34,718 bases of DNA, from NCBI RefSeq assembly GCF_016469035.1, contig NZ_JAEHJZ010000003.1, positions 105,162-139,879 on the forward strand, read 5' to 3'. Origin of the DNA: Gelidibacter salicanalis. Its GTDB lineage: Bacteria; Bacteroidota; Bacteroidia; Flavobacteriales; Flavobacteriaceae. Position numbers and translations under genes: made by a program. Positions 4,863 through 27,460 of the stretch are shown here, piece after piece (within the stretch, counting starts at the first letter, position 1; each line of letters opens with the position of its first letter). The notes beneath the pieces are model-generated. The model worked only from the letters and a program-made list of their open reading frames with translations. It was not told where the DNA came from and searched no databases.

Positions 4863-5850
4863 TGTATATCCGTTTTTACTCATAACCACGTAATATTGGC
4901 AATTACAAGCCTATCGAAGATCTTCTCCCCAAAATATCTTCGATTGAGCTTGTAAACAAACTCGTTCAGATATAACTGTAGGTATTTCCTCTTTATCTTG
5001 TGATGATTGCCCACAACATTGCGCTTGGCATTGCTGATTGTTATGTGGACCCACCTCAAGGTCCCCTTTGTTGTTTCTCCGCTCGATCTCTCGCTGATGT
5101 GCAGTTCCACGTAATCGGCAATGTTGACATATGATGTGCTCTGGTCGGTAAAGACAATGGTCTGTTCTTGGGCAATCGAATCGCGTTCTGGAGTGTTCGG
5201 TCTGTACCATCCGCTTTATGGTCCTCCAACACTTTGGCCTTGAAATAACGGCATGGCGCTCAACCTTTCCAGTGTCCAGATCTTCAAGGACCGCGCTCTC
5301 TGCCATCACGATCACATTGGATTTTGTCTTGCTTCCCCGTCCCGGTTTTTGTGTCCTGTGCTCATTTTCGGAAGCTTCTATGGTGAAATAGCCCTCATCC
5401 ATTTCGATCATTCCCTCCAAGGCATATCTGTCATCTCTCTTTCCCATTGCCCTGCGCAGTTTATAGACCATCGCCCAAACAGGCTCGTAACGTTTTAGGC
5501 CCAACTGGCGCTGGATCTCCTTGGAGGAAAAGCCCTTTTTGGTGGCCGTCAGCAGGAACATGGCCTTGTACCAGGTCAGAAAGGACAGGTTTGAACTCTG
5601 CATGATCGTGCCGCTGCGCAAAGAAGTCCTGCTCCGGCATTTTTTACATTCGTAGCTCCACTAGCTCTTTATCCAATAATGCTCCGTATGCGAGCACTTC
5701 TTGCAGGCGACTCCTATCTCGTTCTTCCTTAAAATGCGTGCGGCATGCCTTTTCACTGCTGAATTCGGCCGAAAAACTAAAAATATTCATACCTTTATTT
5801 TTTGTCTAAAATACTCAAAATTTGCGATTATTCGTGATTGGGGATATACA
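4863..5850 (-). mobile_element. IS1595-family (ISXO2-like) insertion sequence, inactive
   Basis: A 988-bp element. Its ends are the inverted repeat TGTATATCC (4863-4871; complement at 5842-5850), and the similarity continues imperfectly for about 20 further bases. It is bounded by an exact 10-bp direct repeat, AAATTATAAC. A single transposase reading frame fills it on the minus strand but is broken (see the pseudogene entry). It sits in the intergenic region between the Kdo-kinase-like gene and the GT2 at 5926, so it separates two parts of what was probably one glycan locus. The family's usual target duplication is 8 bp as I recall; here 10 bp match, which may be chance extension. Confidence 0.85.
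4880..5790 (-). pseudogene. IS1595-family transposase, degenerate
   Basis: Reading on the minus strand from the ATG at 5790 gives MNIFSFSAEFSSEKACR, then a frameshift near 5720. The next frame encodes a zinc ribbon (ACKKC and ECKKC) interrupted by an amber TAG at 5663-5661. The same frame continues from 5621 through SSNLSFLTWYKAMFLL and the catalytic IEMDEGYF. There are further frameshifts near 5241 and 5185. The last frame has VFTDQST (second catalytic Asp) and YLNEFVYKLNRRYFG (Glu), ending at 4880 within 20 bases of the IS end. At least three frameshifts and one stop mean no active transposase can be made, although every domain is still recognisable, so decay is fairly recent. Confidence 0.9.
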
Positions 5851-7967: not shown

Positions 7968-8025
7968 TAAGAAATATTCTTTCAAGATATTTAAGACCGA
8001 AATAATGAATTAGATTACTTTATTC

Positions 8026-8033
8026 TACTTTTG
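8026..8033 (+). promoter_or_regulatory. -7 box for the Sua5/YrdC-family gene
   Basis: TACTTTTG matches TAnnTTTG and ends 22 bases before the ATG at 8056. Confidence 0.55.
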
Positions 8034-8055
8034 CAAAACCATTCATTACTACGTC

Positions 8056-8613
8056 ATGCATAAAGAAATTTCAAACGCCTTGCAGGTTTTAAAAGAAGGC
8101 GGTCTTATCCTCTACCCTACGGACACGGTTTGGGGAATAGGCTGTGATGCCACCAACCCGGAAGCCGTTAAAAAAGTATTCGAACTAAAAGAGCGCCAAG
8201 ATAGTAAAGCTCTAATTTGTTTGGTAGCCGATGACAGGATGTTGGGAAGGTATGTAAAGGAAATTCCGAAAGTAGCCTATGATTTATTTGATGTATCCGA
8301 AGACCCCATTACCATTATTTATGACGATGCTCAAAATTTAGCTGCTAACTTAATAGCTGAAGACAATTCCATTGCAATTAGAATTCCTGACGACGATTTT
8401 TGCTTTCAGCTCATCAGACGCTTCGGCAAACCTATAGTTTCAACCTCAGCGAATCTAAGCAGTCAGCCCACTCCAAAATCATTTAAAGAAATAGCACCTC
8501 TAATTTTAAAAGGTGTAGACTATGTCGTAAATTTGAATCGCGAAAAAATTTGTACCAAACCCTCGTCTATTATTAAGTTGAGCGCTAATGGGAAAGTGAA
8601 AATTATCAGATAA
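8056..8613 (+). CDS. tsaC: L-threonylcarbamoyladenylate synthase (Sua5/YrdC family)
   Basis: 185 residues, one YrdC domain and no C-terminal Sua5 extension, so the short TsaC form. It makes threonylcarbamoyl-AMP from threonine, bicarbonate and ATP, the first step of the t6A37 modification of ANN-decoding tRNAs. Motifs: GGLILYPTDTVWGIGCDA near residue 15-32, ERQDSKALI near 51 with the conserved Lys, SIAIRIPD near 110 and the ATP-site STSANLSS near 129. It has its own promoter. The left arm of the inverted repeat around the next gene starts only 8 bases after its stop. Confidence 0.94.
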   Translation: MHKEISNALQVLKEGGLILYPTDTVWGIGCDATNPEAVKKVFELKERQDSKALICLVADDRMLGRYVKEIPKVAYDLFDVSEDPITIIYDDAQNLAANLIAEDNSIAIRIPDDDFCFQLIRRFGKPIVSTSANLSSQPTPKSFKEIAPLILKGVDYVVNLNREKICTKPSSIIKLSANGKVKIIR

Positions 8614-8620
8614 TAACATA

Positions 8621-8645
8621 ACCGCAAATTCGCAAATTATTTTTT
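8621..8645. repeat. Left arm of perfect 25-bp inverted repeat around nuclease-like gene
   Basis: Begins ACCGCAAATTCGCAAATT and ends in a T run. The exact reverse complement is at 9033-9057. The arm lies 6 bases before the ATG of the GxxExxY gene, and the right arm contains that gene's stop codon, so the repeat encloses the reading frame almost exactly. Confidence 0.9.
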
Positions 8646-8651
8646 GTTAAA

Positions 8652-9041
8652 ATGGAAGAGGACTATATATTTAAGAAAGAAAATTATCAAATAGTTGGTA
8701 TTCTTTTTGAGGTCCATAAAAATCTCGGTAAAGGTTTTTCAGAAATTGTATACAAGGATGCATTAGAGTATGAATTCAACAACAATAATATTCCATTTAT
8801 ACGCGAAAAAGAATTTAAAGTAAAGTATAAAGACACTTTTCTAAAACACAAATTTTATGCGGACTTTGTTGTATATAATAATATCATATTGGAAATAAAA
8901 ACAGTTGAGTGCTTTAATGCAAGCCATTATAATCAATGTATTAATTATTTGAAAATATCTGGTTATAAACTAGCAATCTTAGCCAATTTCAACTTAATTT
9001 CCTTGGAGTACAAACGCATTATAGATTCAAAGAAAAAATAA
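8652..9041 (+). CDS. GxxExxY family protein (PD-(D/E)XK nuclease-like)
   Basis: 129 residues. The name-giving motif is G28-F-S-E31-I-V-Y34. A nuclease-like core follows: KFYADFVVYNN around residues 68-77 with a conserved Asp, then E81-I-K83, giving the D...ExK pattern of the PD-(D/E)XK superfamily. The biological role of the family is not established. Its stop codon (9039-9041) lies inside the right inverted-repeat arm, and the last 160 bases are the first unit of a four-unit tandem array. The gene is AT-rich and has no recognisable promoter of its own; it may be read through from tsaC 38 bases upstream. The compact, repeat-bounded arrangement suggests a mobile or selfish unit; that is inference. 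Confidence 0.85.
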   Translation: MEEDYIFKKENYQIVGILFEVHKNLGKGFSEIVYKDALEYEFNNNNIPFIREKEFKVKYKDTFLKHKFYADFVVYNNIILEIKTVECFNASHYNQCINYLKISGYKLAILANFNLISLEYKRIIDSKKK

Positions 9042-9057
9042 TTTGCGAATTTGCGGT
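9033..9057. repeat. Right arm of perfect 25-bp inverted repeat
   Basis: Reverse complement of 8621-8645. The same sequence closes each of the three partial copies downstream, so there are four right arms and one left arm. Confidence 0.9.
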
Positions 9058-9062
9058 AAAAA

Positions 9063-9606
9063 ATATCATATTGGAAATAGAAACAGTTGAGTGCTTTAAT
9101 GCAAGCCACTATAATCAATGTATTAATTATTTGAAAATATCTGGTTATAAACTAGCAGTCTTAGCCAATTTCAACTTAATTTCCTTGGAGTACAAACGCA
9201 TTATAGATTCAAAGAAAAAATAATTTGCGAATTTGCGGTAAAAAATATCATATTGGAAATAGAAACAGTTGAGTGCTTTAATGCAAGCCACTGTAATCAA
9301 TGTATTAATTATTTGAAAATATCTGGTTATAAACTAGCAGTCTTAGCCAATTTCAACTTAATTTCCTTGGAGTACAAACGCATTATAGATTCAAAGAAAA
9401 AATAATTTGCGAATTTGCGGTAAAAAATATCATATTGGAAATAAAACAGTTGAGTGCTTTAATGCAAGCCATTATAATCAATGTATTAATTATTTGAAAA
9501 TATCTGGTTATAAACTAGCAGTCTTAGCCAATTTCAACTTAATTTCCTTGGAGTACAAACGCATTATAGATTCAAAGAAAAAATAATTTGCGAATTTGCG
9601 GTAAAA
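9063..9606 (+). pseudogene. Three 5'-truncated copies of the GxxExxY gene
   Basis: Each copy carries roughly the last 54 codons and stop of the intact gene with no start codon and no GxxExxY motif. The first two copies keep the frame, but the codon for Lys83 of the EIK motif is changed from AAA to GAA (EIE), which would remove the catalytic lysine. The third copy has lost one A in the same place and is frameshifted. The second copy also has a TAT-to-TGT change. No translation is expected. Confidence 0.85.
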
Positions 9607-9609
9607 AAC

Positions 9610-11031
9610 ATGAATAACAATAACGCCTTAAAACACCCAATCTTCAAAATCATCTCCCAATCGGCAGCCGAGCTAAAAATTGACGCCTATGTTATTGGTG
9701 GCTTTGTTAGGGATTATATTTTAGAACGCGGACAGCATAAAGATATTGATATTGTTGCGATTGGTAGCGGAATCGCCTTGGCCAAACAAGTGGCTAAAAA
9801 TATTCCCAATCATCCTAAAGTTCAAGTCTTCAAAACCTATGGTACTGCAATGCTAAAATACGAAGACATAGAAATTGAATTTGTGGGCGCCCGTAAGGAA
9901 TCCTATACCGAAGAAAGTAGGAACCCCATAGTAGAAAATGGGACGCTGGAGGATGACCAAAACAGACGGGATTTCACCATAAACGCCATGGCTTTGGATT
10001 TAAGCGCTTCCAATTTTGGAACCTTGCTAGATCCGTTTGAGGGCATTAAAGATTTGGATGCCAAAATCATCAGAACACCTTTAGATCCTGACATCACGTA
10101 CAGCGATGACCCCTTGCGAATGATGCGTGCCATCCGTTTTGCAACCCAGCTCAATTTTACTATAGAACCAACCTCACTTGAAGCGATTTTAAAAAATAAA
10201 GAACGGATCAACATCATTACCAAAGAACGGATTGTTGTAGAACTTCATAAAATTCTTGAAAGCGACGTCCCTTCCGTGGGGTTTATATTGTTAGAACAAA
10301 CTGGTTTGTTAGAGTATATTCTTCCAGAATTGACAGCCTTGAAAGGCATTGATGAAAAAGAAGGACAACGCCACAAAGATAATTTCTATCACACCTTGGA
10401 AGTGGTTGACAATATAGCACAAAACACTAACGATTTATGGTTGCGTTGGGCTGCCCTATTGCACGATATAGGAAAAGCGCCAACCAAGAAATTCAGCAAA
10501 AAAGTAGGTTGGACCTTCCACGCCCATGAGCTGGAAGGCTCAAAAATGGTCTATCGGTTATTTAAGCGTTTAAAAATGCCTTTAAATGACAAGATGAAGT
10601 TTGTGCAAAAAATGGTGTTTATGAGTTCCAGACCTATAGCTTTGGCACAAGATGTGACCGATTCTGCCGTAAGACGTTTGGTATTTGATGCCGGCGAATA
10701 TGTGGATGATTTGATGGTGCTGTGTGAAGCAGACATTACGACCAAAAATCCTAAGAAATTTAAAAAATACCATAACAATTTTAAGCTTGTTAGGGATAAG
10801 ATTGTTGAAGTGGAAGAGCGTGATCAAATTCGCAATTTTCAACCACCGGTTTCTGGCGAGGAAATCATGGAAGCTTTTGGTTTAAAACCGTCCCGAGAAA
10901 TTGGAACCATCAAAGAGACCATTAAAGAAGCCATCTTGGAAGGGAAAATACCCAATGAGCACCAAGCTGCCTACGACTTGATGTTAGAAGAGGGGAAGCG
11001 ATTGGGATTGACGGCAATAGGTAGTAGGTAG
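9610..11031 (+). CDS. cca: CCA tRNA nucleotidyltransferase (HD-domain type)
   Basis: 473 residues. Adds or repairs the 3' CCA of tRNAs using CTP and ATP. Class II nucleotidyltransferase head: VIGGFVRDYIL near residue 27 (the G-G-x-V-R-D signature), the metal-binding KDIDIVAIGSG near 43, RRDFTINAMALD near 119, and DPLRMMRAIRFATQL near 165, which recognises the base. An HD hydrolase domain follows (LLHDIGKAP near 283, HAHELEGSKM near 300). PcnB-type poly(A) polymerases share the head, but this architecture is typical of CCA enzymes in Bacteroidota. The last three residues (GSR) and the stop codon are encoded by a GGTAGTA heptamer array, so the C-terminus has been altered by repeat growth. Confidence 0.93.
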   Translation: MNNNNALKHPIFKIISQSAAELKIDAYVIGGFVRDYILERGQHKDIDIVAIGSGIALAKQVAKNIPNHPKVQVFKTYGTAMLKYEDIEIEFVGARKESYTEESRNPIVENGTLEDDQNRRDFTINAMALDLSASNFGTLLDPFEGIKDLDAKIIRTPLDPDITYSDDPLRMMRAIRFATQLNFTIEPTSLEAILKNKERINIITKERIVVELHKILESDVPSVGFILLEQTGLLEYILPELTALKGIDEKEGQRHKDNFYHTLEVVDNIAQNTNDLWLRWAALLHDIGKAPTKKFSKKVGWTFHAHELEGSKMVYRLFKRLKMPLNDKMKFVQKMVFMSSRPIALAQDVTDSAVRRLVFDAGEYVDDLMVLCEADITTKNPKKFKKYHNNFKLVRDKIVEVEERDQIRNFQPPVSGEEIMEAFGLKPSREIGTIKETIKEAILEGKIPNEHQAAYDLMLEEGKRLGLTAIGSR

Positions 11032-12706: not shown

Positions 12707-14125
12707 TTCTCTATTCTCTATTCTCTTTTCTTTATTCTCTATTCAACATTCGTTATCCAATAACAATCAAGATAAAAACCACCTCGTCTTCAGCTTCTCT
12801 TCGGAAGCAGAATCCACTCCTCCTTTACCAGGAGGAGAATTTAAGATTGTTATAAAATATTAAAATATAACAAACAAAATAATGGCCAATGTGACCCTGC
12901 TCCACTATTCAACCTTTGGTATTGGTGAATCAGGATTCAGGACTTGTTGTTGGATATTCGAGATTTTTCTCTACTCTCTACTCTCTTTTCTTTTTTCTTT
13001 TTTCTTTTTTCTCCATTCAACATTCGTTATCCAATAATAATCAAGATAAAAACCACCTCGTCTTCAGCTTCTCTTCGGAAGCAGAATCCACTCCTCCTTT
13101 ACCAGGAGGAGAATTTAAGATTGTGATATAATATTAAAATATAGCAAACAAAATAATGGCCAATGTGACCCTGCTGCACTATTCAACCTTTGGTATTGGT
13201 GAATCAGGATTCGGGATTTGTTGTTGGACGTACAAGTTTCTCTACTCTCTACTCTCTTTTCTCTTTTCTCTACTCTCTATTCTCCATTCAACATTCGTTA
13301 TCCAATAATAATCAGATAAAAACCACCTCGTCTTCAGCTTCTCTTCGGAAGCAGAATCCACTCCTCCTTTACGAGGAGGAGAATTTAAGATTGTGATAAA
13401 CTATTAAAATATAGCAAACAAAATAATGGCCAATGTGACCCTGCTCCACTATTCAACCTTTGGTATTGGTGAATCAGGATTCGGGATTTGTTGTTGGACG
13501 TACAAGTTTCTCTACTCTCTACTCTCTTTTCTTTTTTCTCTACTCTCTATTCTCCATTCAACATTCATTACCCAATAATAATCAGATAAAAACCACCTCG
13601 TCTTCTACTTCTCTTCGGAAGCAGAATCCACTCCTCCTTTACCAGGAGGAGAATTTAAGATTGTGATATAATATTAAAATATAGCAAACAAAATAATGGC
13701 CAATGTGACCCTGCTCCACTATTCAACCTTTGGTATTGGTGAATCAGGATTCAGGATTTGTTGTTGGATATTCGAGATTTTTCTCTACTCTCTACTCTCT
13801 ATTCTCTTTTCTTTTTTCTTTATTCAACATTCGTTACCCAATAATAATCAGATAAAAACCACCTCGTCTTCAGCTTCTCTTCGGAAGCAGAATCCACTCC
13901 TCCTTTACCAGGAGGAGAATTTAAGATTGTGATATAATATTAAAATATAGCAAACAAAATAATGGCCAATGTGACCCTGCTGCACTATTCAACCTTTGGT
14001 ATTGGTGAATCAGGATTCGGGATTTGTTGTTGGACGTACAAGTTTCTCTACTCTCTACTCTCTTTTCTCTTTTCTCTACTCTCTACTCTCTACTCTCTAT
14101 TCTCTTTTCTCCAGTCTAGTTTCTC
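12707..14125. repeat. Composite tandem array, ~270-bp unit, five full cassettes
   Basis: Repeat starts (AATGGCCAATG) at 12881, 13155, 13425, 13695 and 13961 give spacings of 274, 270, 270 and 266. Each unit has: (A) about 80 bp from AATGGCC to GTTGTTGG; (B) a pyrimidine tract made of degenerate heptamers such as CTCTACT/CTCTATT ending in CATTCAACATTC; (C) about 110 bp from AACCACCTCGTC containing two small hairpins, GCTTC...GAAGC and CTCCTCC...GGAGGAG. The array starts (12707) and ends (about 14125) in a B tract, giving six B tracts and five C-A cassettes. Small open frames across it are not consistent between copies and are not called as genes. It fills the convergent gap between the genes ending at 12696 and 14139. 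Confidence 0.95.
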
Positions 14126-27068: not shown

Positions 27069-27131
27069 GAGAGTTGAGGACTGAGGTTTGAGGTTTGAGG
27101 TATGAGGTGTGAGGTGTGAGGTTTGAGAAAA
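27069..27131. repeat. Heptamer tandem repeat GAGGTTT-type, nine copies, directly after uvrB
   Basis: Nine consecutive 7-base units all starting GAG (GAGGTTT, GAGGTAT, GAGGTGT and variants). The first begins at the base following the uvrB stop codon. Confidence 0.95.
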
Positions 27132-27320
27132 TTTAGGTATAAAGTGAGAGAAACTCAAATTGCTTAAACATTTTCCAATCAAAAGCCGAACTATCAGCTA
27201 AAGACTGCCAACTAAAGAAGTTATTACACAGAGTTTCACAGAGGAGCACAAAGTTCCACAGAGAAAAGCAAGCTAATTGTATCTGACAGTTTTAAACTTA
27301 AATCGTACGCTCTGGATACT
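27132..27320. other. Gene-free spacer with a decamer repeat
   Basis: No gene seen. At 27227-27266 there are four degenerate 10-base units, CACAGAGTTT, CACAGAGGAG, CACAAAGTTC and CACAGAGAAA, a repeat style often met in intergenic DNA of environmental bacteria. The rest shows nothing I recognise. Confidence 0.6.
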
Positions 27321-27460
27321 GACAACTGAAGATTGACAACAGACAACAGACAACTGACAACTGACAACAGACAACAGACAACTGACAACAGACAACAGAC
27401 AACAGACAACAGACAACAGACAACAGACAACAGACAACAGACAACTGCCAACTGCCAACT
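27321..27460. repeat. Heptamer tandem repeat GACAACA/GACAACT, 20 copies
   Basis: Twenty 7-base units, mostly GACAACA and GACAACT, with one diverged unit (GAAGATT) near the left end and two GCCAACT at the right end. It stops 5 bases short of the stop codon of the minus-strand TerB-like gene. Long open frames across it on both strands are by-products of the repeat. Confidence 0.97.

Follow-up and report, generated by a model that had tools for sequence, protein, structure and literature searches.

A GxxExxY nuclease-like gene with inverted arms at tsaC-cca of Gelidibacter salicanalis: a candidate gene-plus-repeat unit found in many phyla

In the flavobacterium Gelidibacter salicanalis a small nuclease-like gene lies between tsaC and cca, flanked by a perfect inverted repeat and followed by three additional copies of its own 3' end. 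This arrangement raises the question of whether gene and repeats belong together, and whether the repeated ends reflect a process of self-copying. An earlier reading of the window, by which we mean the whole 34,718-nt stretch of DNA analysed, had suggested from its letters alone that the gene and its arms might constitute a small mobile or self-copying unit. Here we compare the locus with GxxExxY loci of the same genome, genus and family and of other phyla.

The gene at tsaC-cca, its arms and its repeated 3' end

The product of the gene is a full-length member of the GxxExxY family (TIGR04256, E 3.5e-37, 127.3 bits against a cut-off of 35) and also matches PF13366 (PDDEXK_3; E 4.5e-34, 117.7 bits, cut-off 22), which confirms the GxxExxY / PD-(D/E)XK-like identity proposed for it from the sequence. 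These two families were the sole matches of the unit at E <= 0.001, and no Y1/HUH, DDE or other known transposase was found at that threshold. The PADLOC defence library, searched at E up to 1, gave no match for the protein, and no Rfam family matched positions 8000-9700 of the window at E up to 0.1. The unit is located between tsaC and cca and not within a 23S rRNA gene. Elsewhere in the window, at 4911-5621, there is an IS1595-type transposase reading frame whose match to the family profile stops after its first half and which is apparently degenerate.

The two 25-nt arms are, as had been described, perfectly complementary, and in a wider inverted-repeat comparison the match extends to 33 nt at 91% (Table 1). 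The left arm starts at the eighth nucleotide past the tsaC stop codon. The final 9 nt of the gene, among them its stop codon, fall within the right arm, and the gene, which the earlier statement placed almost exactly between its arms, is thus flanked by them without being strictly enclosed. Each arm consists of C-R-C-N-R-A-K units in an array, and pairing arises only between both arms together. A 17-nt core of the arm matched five times in the window (up to 3 mismatches allowed, all five exact) against 0.26 expected, and a search of the whole genome with up to 2 mismatches recovered these five plus one place elsewhere with 2 mismatches. That the exact 25-nt arm is an interspersed repeat of this genome was rejected, since its core occurs only once elsewhere.

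Downstream of the gene a 182-nt segment, which joins the terminal ~165 nt of the gene to the right arm and a few nucleotides of flank, is present in four head-to-tail copies (spacing 182, 182 and 181 nt; TRF 8880-9608, period 182, 4.0 copies, 98% matches). Right arms therefore end at 9057, 9239, 9421 and 9602 while the left arm is single, in agreement with the count of four 3' ends to one 5' end made in the sequence-only reading. The Lys-to-Glu change of E-I-K that it reported for the two in-frame copies is also real, the open reading frames of copies 2 and 3 (9071-9223 and 9253-9405) reading EIET; the frameshift of the fourth copy is a 1-nt deletion, the loss of one A. By eye, a substitution absent from copy 1 is common to copies 2-4 and the three junctions are alike, and a single duplication that was later amplified is for these reasons a simpler account than copying on three separate occasions. 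The additional 3' ends look like a secondary, ordinary 182-nt tandem duplication. Incomplete self-copying primed at the right arm, as had been proposed, is not upheld, since head-to-tail duplication suffices and partial 3' copies are rare elsewhere.

Of 167 loci checked, among which the window is listed twice (as L005 and L219), five had partial 3' copies downstream: the window itself, L044, L004, L126 and L228, those at L126 and L228 being of 32 and 54 nt only. On this count, 3'-end copies as a general habit of GxxExxY elements were dropped from consideration. The clearest counterpart belongs to the same genus, where a different GxxExxY locus (L044 2000-2600, G013:C18) carries the 3' end plus right arm twice more with a period of 245, and weaker 3' remnants occur at L004, L205 and L207. 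The same 167 loci include 5' partial copies upstream of the gene at L004 and L212 and a whole-gene tandem at L210.

Table 1. Positions in the window of the GxxExxY gene, its arms, its repeated ends, its neighbours and a gene-less array
Feature	Position	Strand	Remarks
tsaC (threonylcarbamoyl-AMP synthase)	8056..8613	+	left neighbour; genus-native, 93% aa to congener G013
left arm	8621..8645	+	two CGCAAAT units (C-R-C-N-R-A-T), T-run besides
GxxExxY nuclease-like gene	8652..9041	+	129 aa; sole intact copy at the tsaC-cca site of the window
right arm	9033..9057	-	left arm inverted
second 182-nt copy	9059..9239	+	right arm 9215-9239; K to E in E-I-K; boundaries approximate
third 182-nt copy	9241..9421	+	right arm 9397-9421; K to E in E-I-K; boundaries approximate
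fourth 182-nt copy	9422..9602	+	right arm 9578-9602; frameshift at E-I-K codons; boundaries approximate
cca tRNA nucleotidyltransferase	9610..11031	+	right neighbour; genus-native, 91% aa to congener G013
gene-less array	27227..27263	+	four C-R-C-N-R-A-G units, CACAGAG type

Inverted arrays at GxxExxY loci and their link to the protein

Loci for comparison were drawn for the family from 149 and 397 genomes and for the genus from 10 genomes; a further 80 loci of many phyla are the best 80 of at least 477 confirmed relatives found with a Flavobacteriaceae-type query and are not a random sample. A GxxExxY gene was present in 32 of the 149 drawn family genomes and in 10/10 genomes of the genus, and the genome of the window itself has five such genes plus fragments. 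Among its other loci, inverted repeats of other sequence and similar style were scored at L003 and L004, the inverted repeat seen by eye at L001 has a score of 23, within background, and inverted arms are absent from L002.

Matched inverted flanks recur well beyond this genome. When each flank was scored against its own reverse-complemented opposite flank, a comparison that presumes no motif, the median was 33 at 123 loci as against 18 in 1230 mismatched pairs, and a score of at least 30 was reached at 74 of the 123 loci as against 38 of the 1230 pairs (the 123 loci, with scores held by locus name, come from 126 full-length genes, 2 of them with a short flank). Scores of at least 30 were also obtained in direct orientation at 35/123 loci. 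The arms themselves repeat a unit of 7 nt, C-R-C-N-R-A-G or C-R-C-N-R-A-T, at a spacing of 8-11 nt; units that break this consensus exist, such as CACATAG at L274. Arrays of at least two units in the expected orientation stand to the left of the gene at 95 of 143 loci, to the right at 94 and on both sides at 77, the set of 143 being what was left of 148 loci after exclusion of truncated or frameshifted genes (<90 profile columns), duplicate domains and flanks <150 nt. At a distance of 700 nt the corresponding numbers were 1/142 on the left and 3/138 on the right, and shuffled sequences gave on average 0.5 in 286. Arrays of opposite orientation were seen on the left of 33 and on the right of 25 of the 143 genes (2 and 4 at 700 nt); these, like the direct-orientation flank scores, are not rare, since a good number of arms form hairpins of their own or are embedded in repeats. 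An array on one side only was found at 35/143 loci and some other inverted repeat instead of arrays at 12/143, and 19/143 had neither an array nor an inverted repeat scoring 30. The array-bearing loci represent at least nine phyla. The expectation of the sequence-only reading that GxxExxY genes elsewhere might be bounded by matched arms is thus borne out, both by the flank scores (74/123) and by the double arrays (77/143): GxxExxY genes and inverted arms are associated, and the arms are oriented with respect to the gene.

The sequence of the unit varies between loci in a manner that points to a connection with the protein. At the 77 two-arm loci the majority bases of the left and right arm agree at position 7 in 76, at position 2 in 70 and at position 5 in 73; the fourth base, judged by eye at the tsaC-cca loci, agrees poorly. 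When the seventh base was mapped on a tree of 143 proteins (112 labelled), it required 3 changes, where the minimum in 1000 shuffles was 29. Positions 2 and 5 required 17 and 21 changes (shuffle minima 27 and 24) and the spacing 19 (minimum 44). This label test uses one quick tree with a simple model and takes no account of arms shared by descent at orthologous loci. An arm is closer to its partner than to the arms of relatives at 128 of 143 loci when those relatives have 40-55% protein identity and at 111 of 135 at 55-70%, falling to 61 of 99 at 70-85% and 17 of 37 at 85% and above, a fading attributable to close relatives still having common arms. As judged from these comparisons, the unit sequence differs by element and is common to both arms of an element, and the class of unit is linked to the protein clade. 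Taken over the tree, the same data show that arms persist and change alongside the gene over long times, which by itself does not prove binding.

Replacement, relocation and gene-less arrays

The order tsaC-GxxExxY-cca recurs in 25 of the 45 loci compared for neighbours, in the same genus, in Flavobacterium and in other Flavobacteriaceae genera, and 21 of these 25 carry, by reading, a two-unit array on both sides. The unit is an old, long-term resident of this site. Inspection by eye of tsaC-cca in the ten genomes of the genus revealed an intact gene in three (that of the window, G013 and G156), remnants in two (G154 and G155) and none in five. The gene-free sites of these five congeners (L185, L187, L190, L191 and L193) bear, by eye, a short hairpin of another style, TTCAAATTCCAAATTCCA ... 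TTTGG.ATTTGGTACTTGAAATTTGAA, and such other-style hairpins were likewise seen by eye at or beside the insertion place in the Flavobacterium loci L270 and L275. Empty sites in the sense of the sequence-only reading, tsaC-cca without the unit, therefore exist, within the genus and also in F. urocaniciphilum.

The gene of the window does not share the history of its neighbours. It is 79% identical to the Flavobacterium gene at L064, and 65% and 62% identical to the same-site genes of its congeners, and it is nested among Flavobacterium genes with support of 99/95; an AU test, for which the group was chosen with identities and tree already in view, rejects a clade of the window gene with its congeners (p 0.00036). 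The flanking tsaC and cca are by comparison only 61% and 72% identical to those of L064, the nearest Flavobacterium locus, and 93% and 91% identical to those of G013. In the alignment the allegiance of the sequence switches, by eye, at the arms, and two CGCAAAT units make up the arms of L064 just as they do the arms of the window. Alignment and tree together show that gene and arms were exchanged, the boundary falling at the arms, and the simplest reading is that the resident copy of the window was swapped, in one piece, for a gene with arms of the Flavobacterium lineage.

A second case concerns a change of place. F. bernardetii (L068) and F. urocaniciphilum (L070) have in common a 448-nt block of 86.8% identity at unrelated sites, the former at tsaC-cca and the latter between a GTPase gene and a FAD-linked oxidase gene (named from their translations). 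The block runs from 6 nt outside the left arm to 40 nt past the stop codon and stops short of the right arm. At L070 the left arm is decayed, and an extra arm pair forming a hairpin lies behind the gene. The place in F. bernardetii that corresponds to L070 (L250) is occupied by a gene-less hairpin with the same kind of arms, which folds as DNA with -14 kcal/mol (z -5.6), and in F. urocaniciphilum 488 nt including the gene replace 22 nt of this L250-type hairpin. F. urocaniciphilum has no GxxExxY gene at tsaC-cca, and the direction of the movement is fixed only where tsaC-cca is the ancestral place. An all-against-all relocation search of 172 loci returned 241 pairs, and among the pairs listed L068/L070 is the only one of high identity at unrelated sites that reaches an arm. 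The exchange at tsaC-cca and this relocation together support the earlier suggestion that gene and arms form a unit.

The same two species differ more generally. F. bernardetii has nine PF13366 matches and F. urocaniciphilum four, at three places; of the nine F. bernardetii places, compared with F. urocaniciphilum over ~1.72 of 2.8 Mb, five are without the gene there, two are common and two are not comparable, so that the gene differs at 5 of the 7 comparable sites. Gene presence and absence thus vary at several sites between two close species, and deletion accounts for part of this pattern. No target-site duplication was evident by eye in five pairs of filled and empty sites, in which flanks of 79-88% identity and other sequence in the empty sites mean that short duplications could escape notice. 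Spread by plasmids or phages is little in evidence in searches with the window protein alone (tblastn, E <= 1e-5), which found matches in 7 of 72,556 plasmid records and in 0 of 50,697 phage records.

Arrays also occur without a gene. A three-unit pattern matched 42 times in the genome of the window (34 non-overlapping matches by manual count; reversed control 0), in every case more than 5 kb from the GxxExxY genes, and one such array lies in the window itself (Table 1). In the intergenic stretch around the latter (27074-27459), arrays of other heptamers, TTGAGGT and GACAACA, were observed on either side of it. Across the family the three-unit pattern was present in 24 of the 32 genomes with a GxxExxY gene and in 13 of the 117 without (Fisher 4.8e-12), an association that is partly built in since the pattern matches gene-side arms too. 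Summed matches were 339 in genomes with and 36 in genomes without the gene, and at least five matches were found in 12/32 and 2/117, respectively; 8 of the 32 gene-bearing genomes had no three-unit match. The reversed control gave 27 matches in 14 of the 149 family genomes, 4 of these with the gene. Among the places listed, the share lying over 1 kb from any PF13366 match was, by eye, 26/26 in G013, 10/10 in G127, 15/17 in G125, 20/26 in G027 and 6/12 in G116, so gene-less arrays are dispersed through many gene-bearing genomes. One family genome of 99% completeness (G023) has 15 matches to C-R-C-N-R-A-T arrays and no PF13366 gene; its arrays may be orphans or be served by a distant enzyme. The possibility raised at the outset that the arms are an ordinary interspersed repeat accordingly fails for the exact arm and holds in another form, in that a family of unit arrays recurs whose sequence varies per element.

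The enzyme, comparable systems and competing explanations

In the family alignment G28, E31, Y34, D71, E81 and K83 are invariant or nearly so. A profile search of the PDB gave weak matches to T7 endonuclease I (E 0.55 and 0.63), and PHROG_945, the family of T7 gene 3, matched weakly as well (E 0.016). A single targeted comparison with T7 gene 3 by hhalign had a probability of 72% over 58 columns, with the D and E-x-K residues aligned and an E-value of 3.3e-5 that applies to one comparison alone; the GxxE glutamate lies opposite no acidic residue of T7 gene 3. By these profile comparisons the GxxExxY nuclease weakly resembles T7 endonuclease I, which is the Holliday-junction resolving enzyme of the phage, a domain-swapped dimer that cleaves four-way junctions. 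A junction-cutting enzyme would suit inverted arms that are able to extrude. The searches made found no function for GxxExxY; titles and abstract openings, with subscription journals and preprints outside their range, yielded no published account of GxxExxY genes with arms, and those passages of the literature that name the family contain nothing on arms or repeats.

The closest parallel is provided by REP/BIME elements (REPINs) and their RAYT genes. In two accounts (PMC2817692, PMC8049555), a small RAYT gene is described between two inverted repeats, with gene-less copies of the repeat dispersed in the genome; REPs are commoner in genomes that possess the gene, which stays at one place for long and is nearly absent from plasmids. 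GxxExxY units likewise display inverted flanking repeats, dispersed gene-less copies and co-occurrence of gene and repeat; they too reside long at one site, tsaC-cca, and are nearly absent from plasmids. However, RAYTs are IS200/IS605-related tyrosine transposases, whereas GxxExxY proteins are PD-(D/E)XK-type nucleases; REPs are palindromic and carry a GT(A/G)G head, whereas the arms studied here are arrays of 7-nt direct units; and RAYTs are described as single-copy and vertically inherited, whereas GxxExxY genes reach 9 and 14 PF13366 matches per genome and change place. Since enzyme and repeat structure differ and multiple copies are possible, GxxExxY units are not members of the REP/RAYT group. 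With MITEs and insertion sequences they share inverted ends and the occurrence of gene-bearing and gene-less forms at one site, but they have no known transposase. The arm-bounded replacement at tsaC-cca would also be compatible with the behaviour of a homing endonuclease, which cuts the gene-less allele and is copied in.

Gene and arms look like an old unit that moves occasionally. We consider it somewhat more probable than its negation that the locus represents a widespread two-part unit, in which a PD-(D/E)XK-type nuclease gene and its cognate inverted arms form a REP/RAYT-like system around an unrelated enzyme. That the nuclease itself drives exchange and movement is a putative step, and the best-supported one. 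The GxxExxY protein would recognise its arm units and, if it is a junction- or hairpin-cutting enzyme, might cut where the arms extrude; repair or replication may then copy gene-bearing or gene-less units between places, by analogy with RAYT transposases and REPs. A bolder form of the proposal, that this is a multi-phylum class of self-maintaining repeats in which the nuclease recognises clade-specific 7-nt arrays, homes into gene-less hairpins and spreads both itself and arm-only copies, is held tentatively, its chances lying appreciably below even.

The arms could instead be a REP- or MITE-like repeat that is moved by some other enzyme, with the GxxExxY genes as caught passengers. This would accommodate the 42 array matches of the window's genome, all away from its GxxExxY genes, the arrays of G023 without a gene, and the PF05635 genes of the same genome, which are flanked by inverted short-repeat arms that differ in sequence; it is nevertheless unlikely, given that the seventh unit base tracks the GxxExxY protein tree, that the unit sequence is matched between both arms of an element and that arrays cluster at GxxExxY genes across nine or more phyla. 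An action of the arms in RNA, as a long-range stem of the transcript that protects, silences or processes the message, would explain why they are inverted and matched, and the inverted ends that bound insertions of 23S rRNA genes resemble GxxExxY arms. Yet at 115 loci the arm mismatches on the coding strand comprised 199 that are G.U-compatible and 236 of A.C type, with no excess of the former and hence no sign of RNA-level pairing in the direction of mismatch, arms are found without a gene between them, and the Rfam search was negative; we regard this explanation as distinctly improbable.

Residence at tsaC-cca in 25 of 45 loci and in many genera is what would be expected if GxxExxY were a resident host gene, encoding for example a nuclease of repair or defence, with the arms serving as operators for its own regulation. 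Operators, though, would require no matched array downstream of the gene and no multitude of gene-less copies in other intergenic regions, and with gene and arms exchanged and relocated and no match in the PADLOC library, this account has very little probability. That an old gene has merely undergone local tandem repetition in the window, and has its inverted arms by coincidence, is hardly tenable: this view draws on the 3' copies, a plain 182-nt tandem duplication that is rare elsewhere, but leaves unexplained the arms, which are inverted and matched at most of the GxxExxY loci examined.

On the preferred reading, that of a nuclease gene with cognate arms, a candidate for the cognate DNA target of the GxxExxY family can be put forward, the architecture of its loci becomes clear, and filled as well as gene-less sites are available for direct tests of function. 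Should the nuclease drive its repeats, repeat-plus-enzyme systems comparable to REP/RAYT would have arisen with an unrelated enzyme too, and an explanation would be at hand for intergenic repeats in the style of CTCTGTG, CTTTGCG or ATTCGTG, which occur in many environmental genomes.

Two further repeat arrangements were observed in the same genome. Genes of PF05635, the 23S rRNA intervening-sequence protein with a four-helix bundle, resemble GxxExxY genes in lying between inverted arms of short repeats and differ from them in protein family and repeat units. At these loci (L174 and L176-L183) the arm units are TCTCTTC, GAAGTTTA, ACAGATGA and TTGAAAA, and the inverted-repeat scores were 25-43 in 9 loci as against a mean of 21 and a maximum of 50 for mismatched pairs; they are possibly a second gene-plus-repeat family. 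In the window itself, the intergenic stretch at 12708-14090 consists of a 270-nt unit repeated five times in tandem, with heptamers of the TTCTCTA type.
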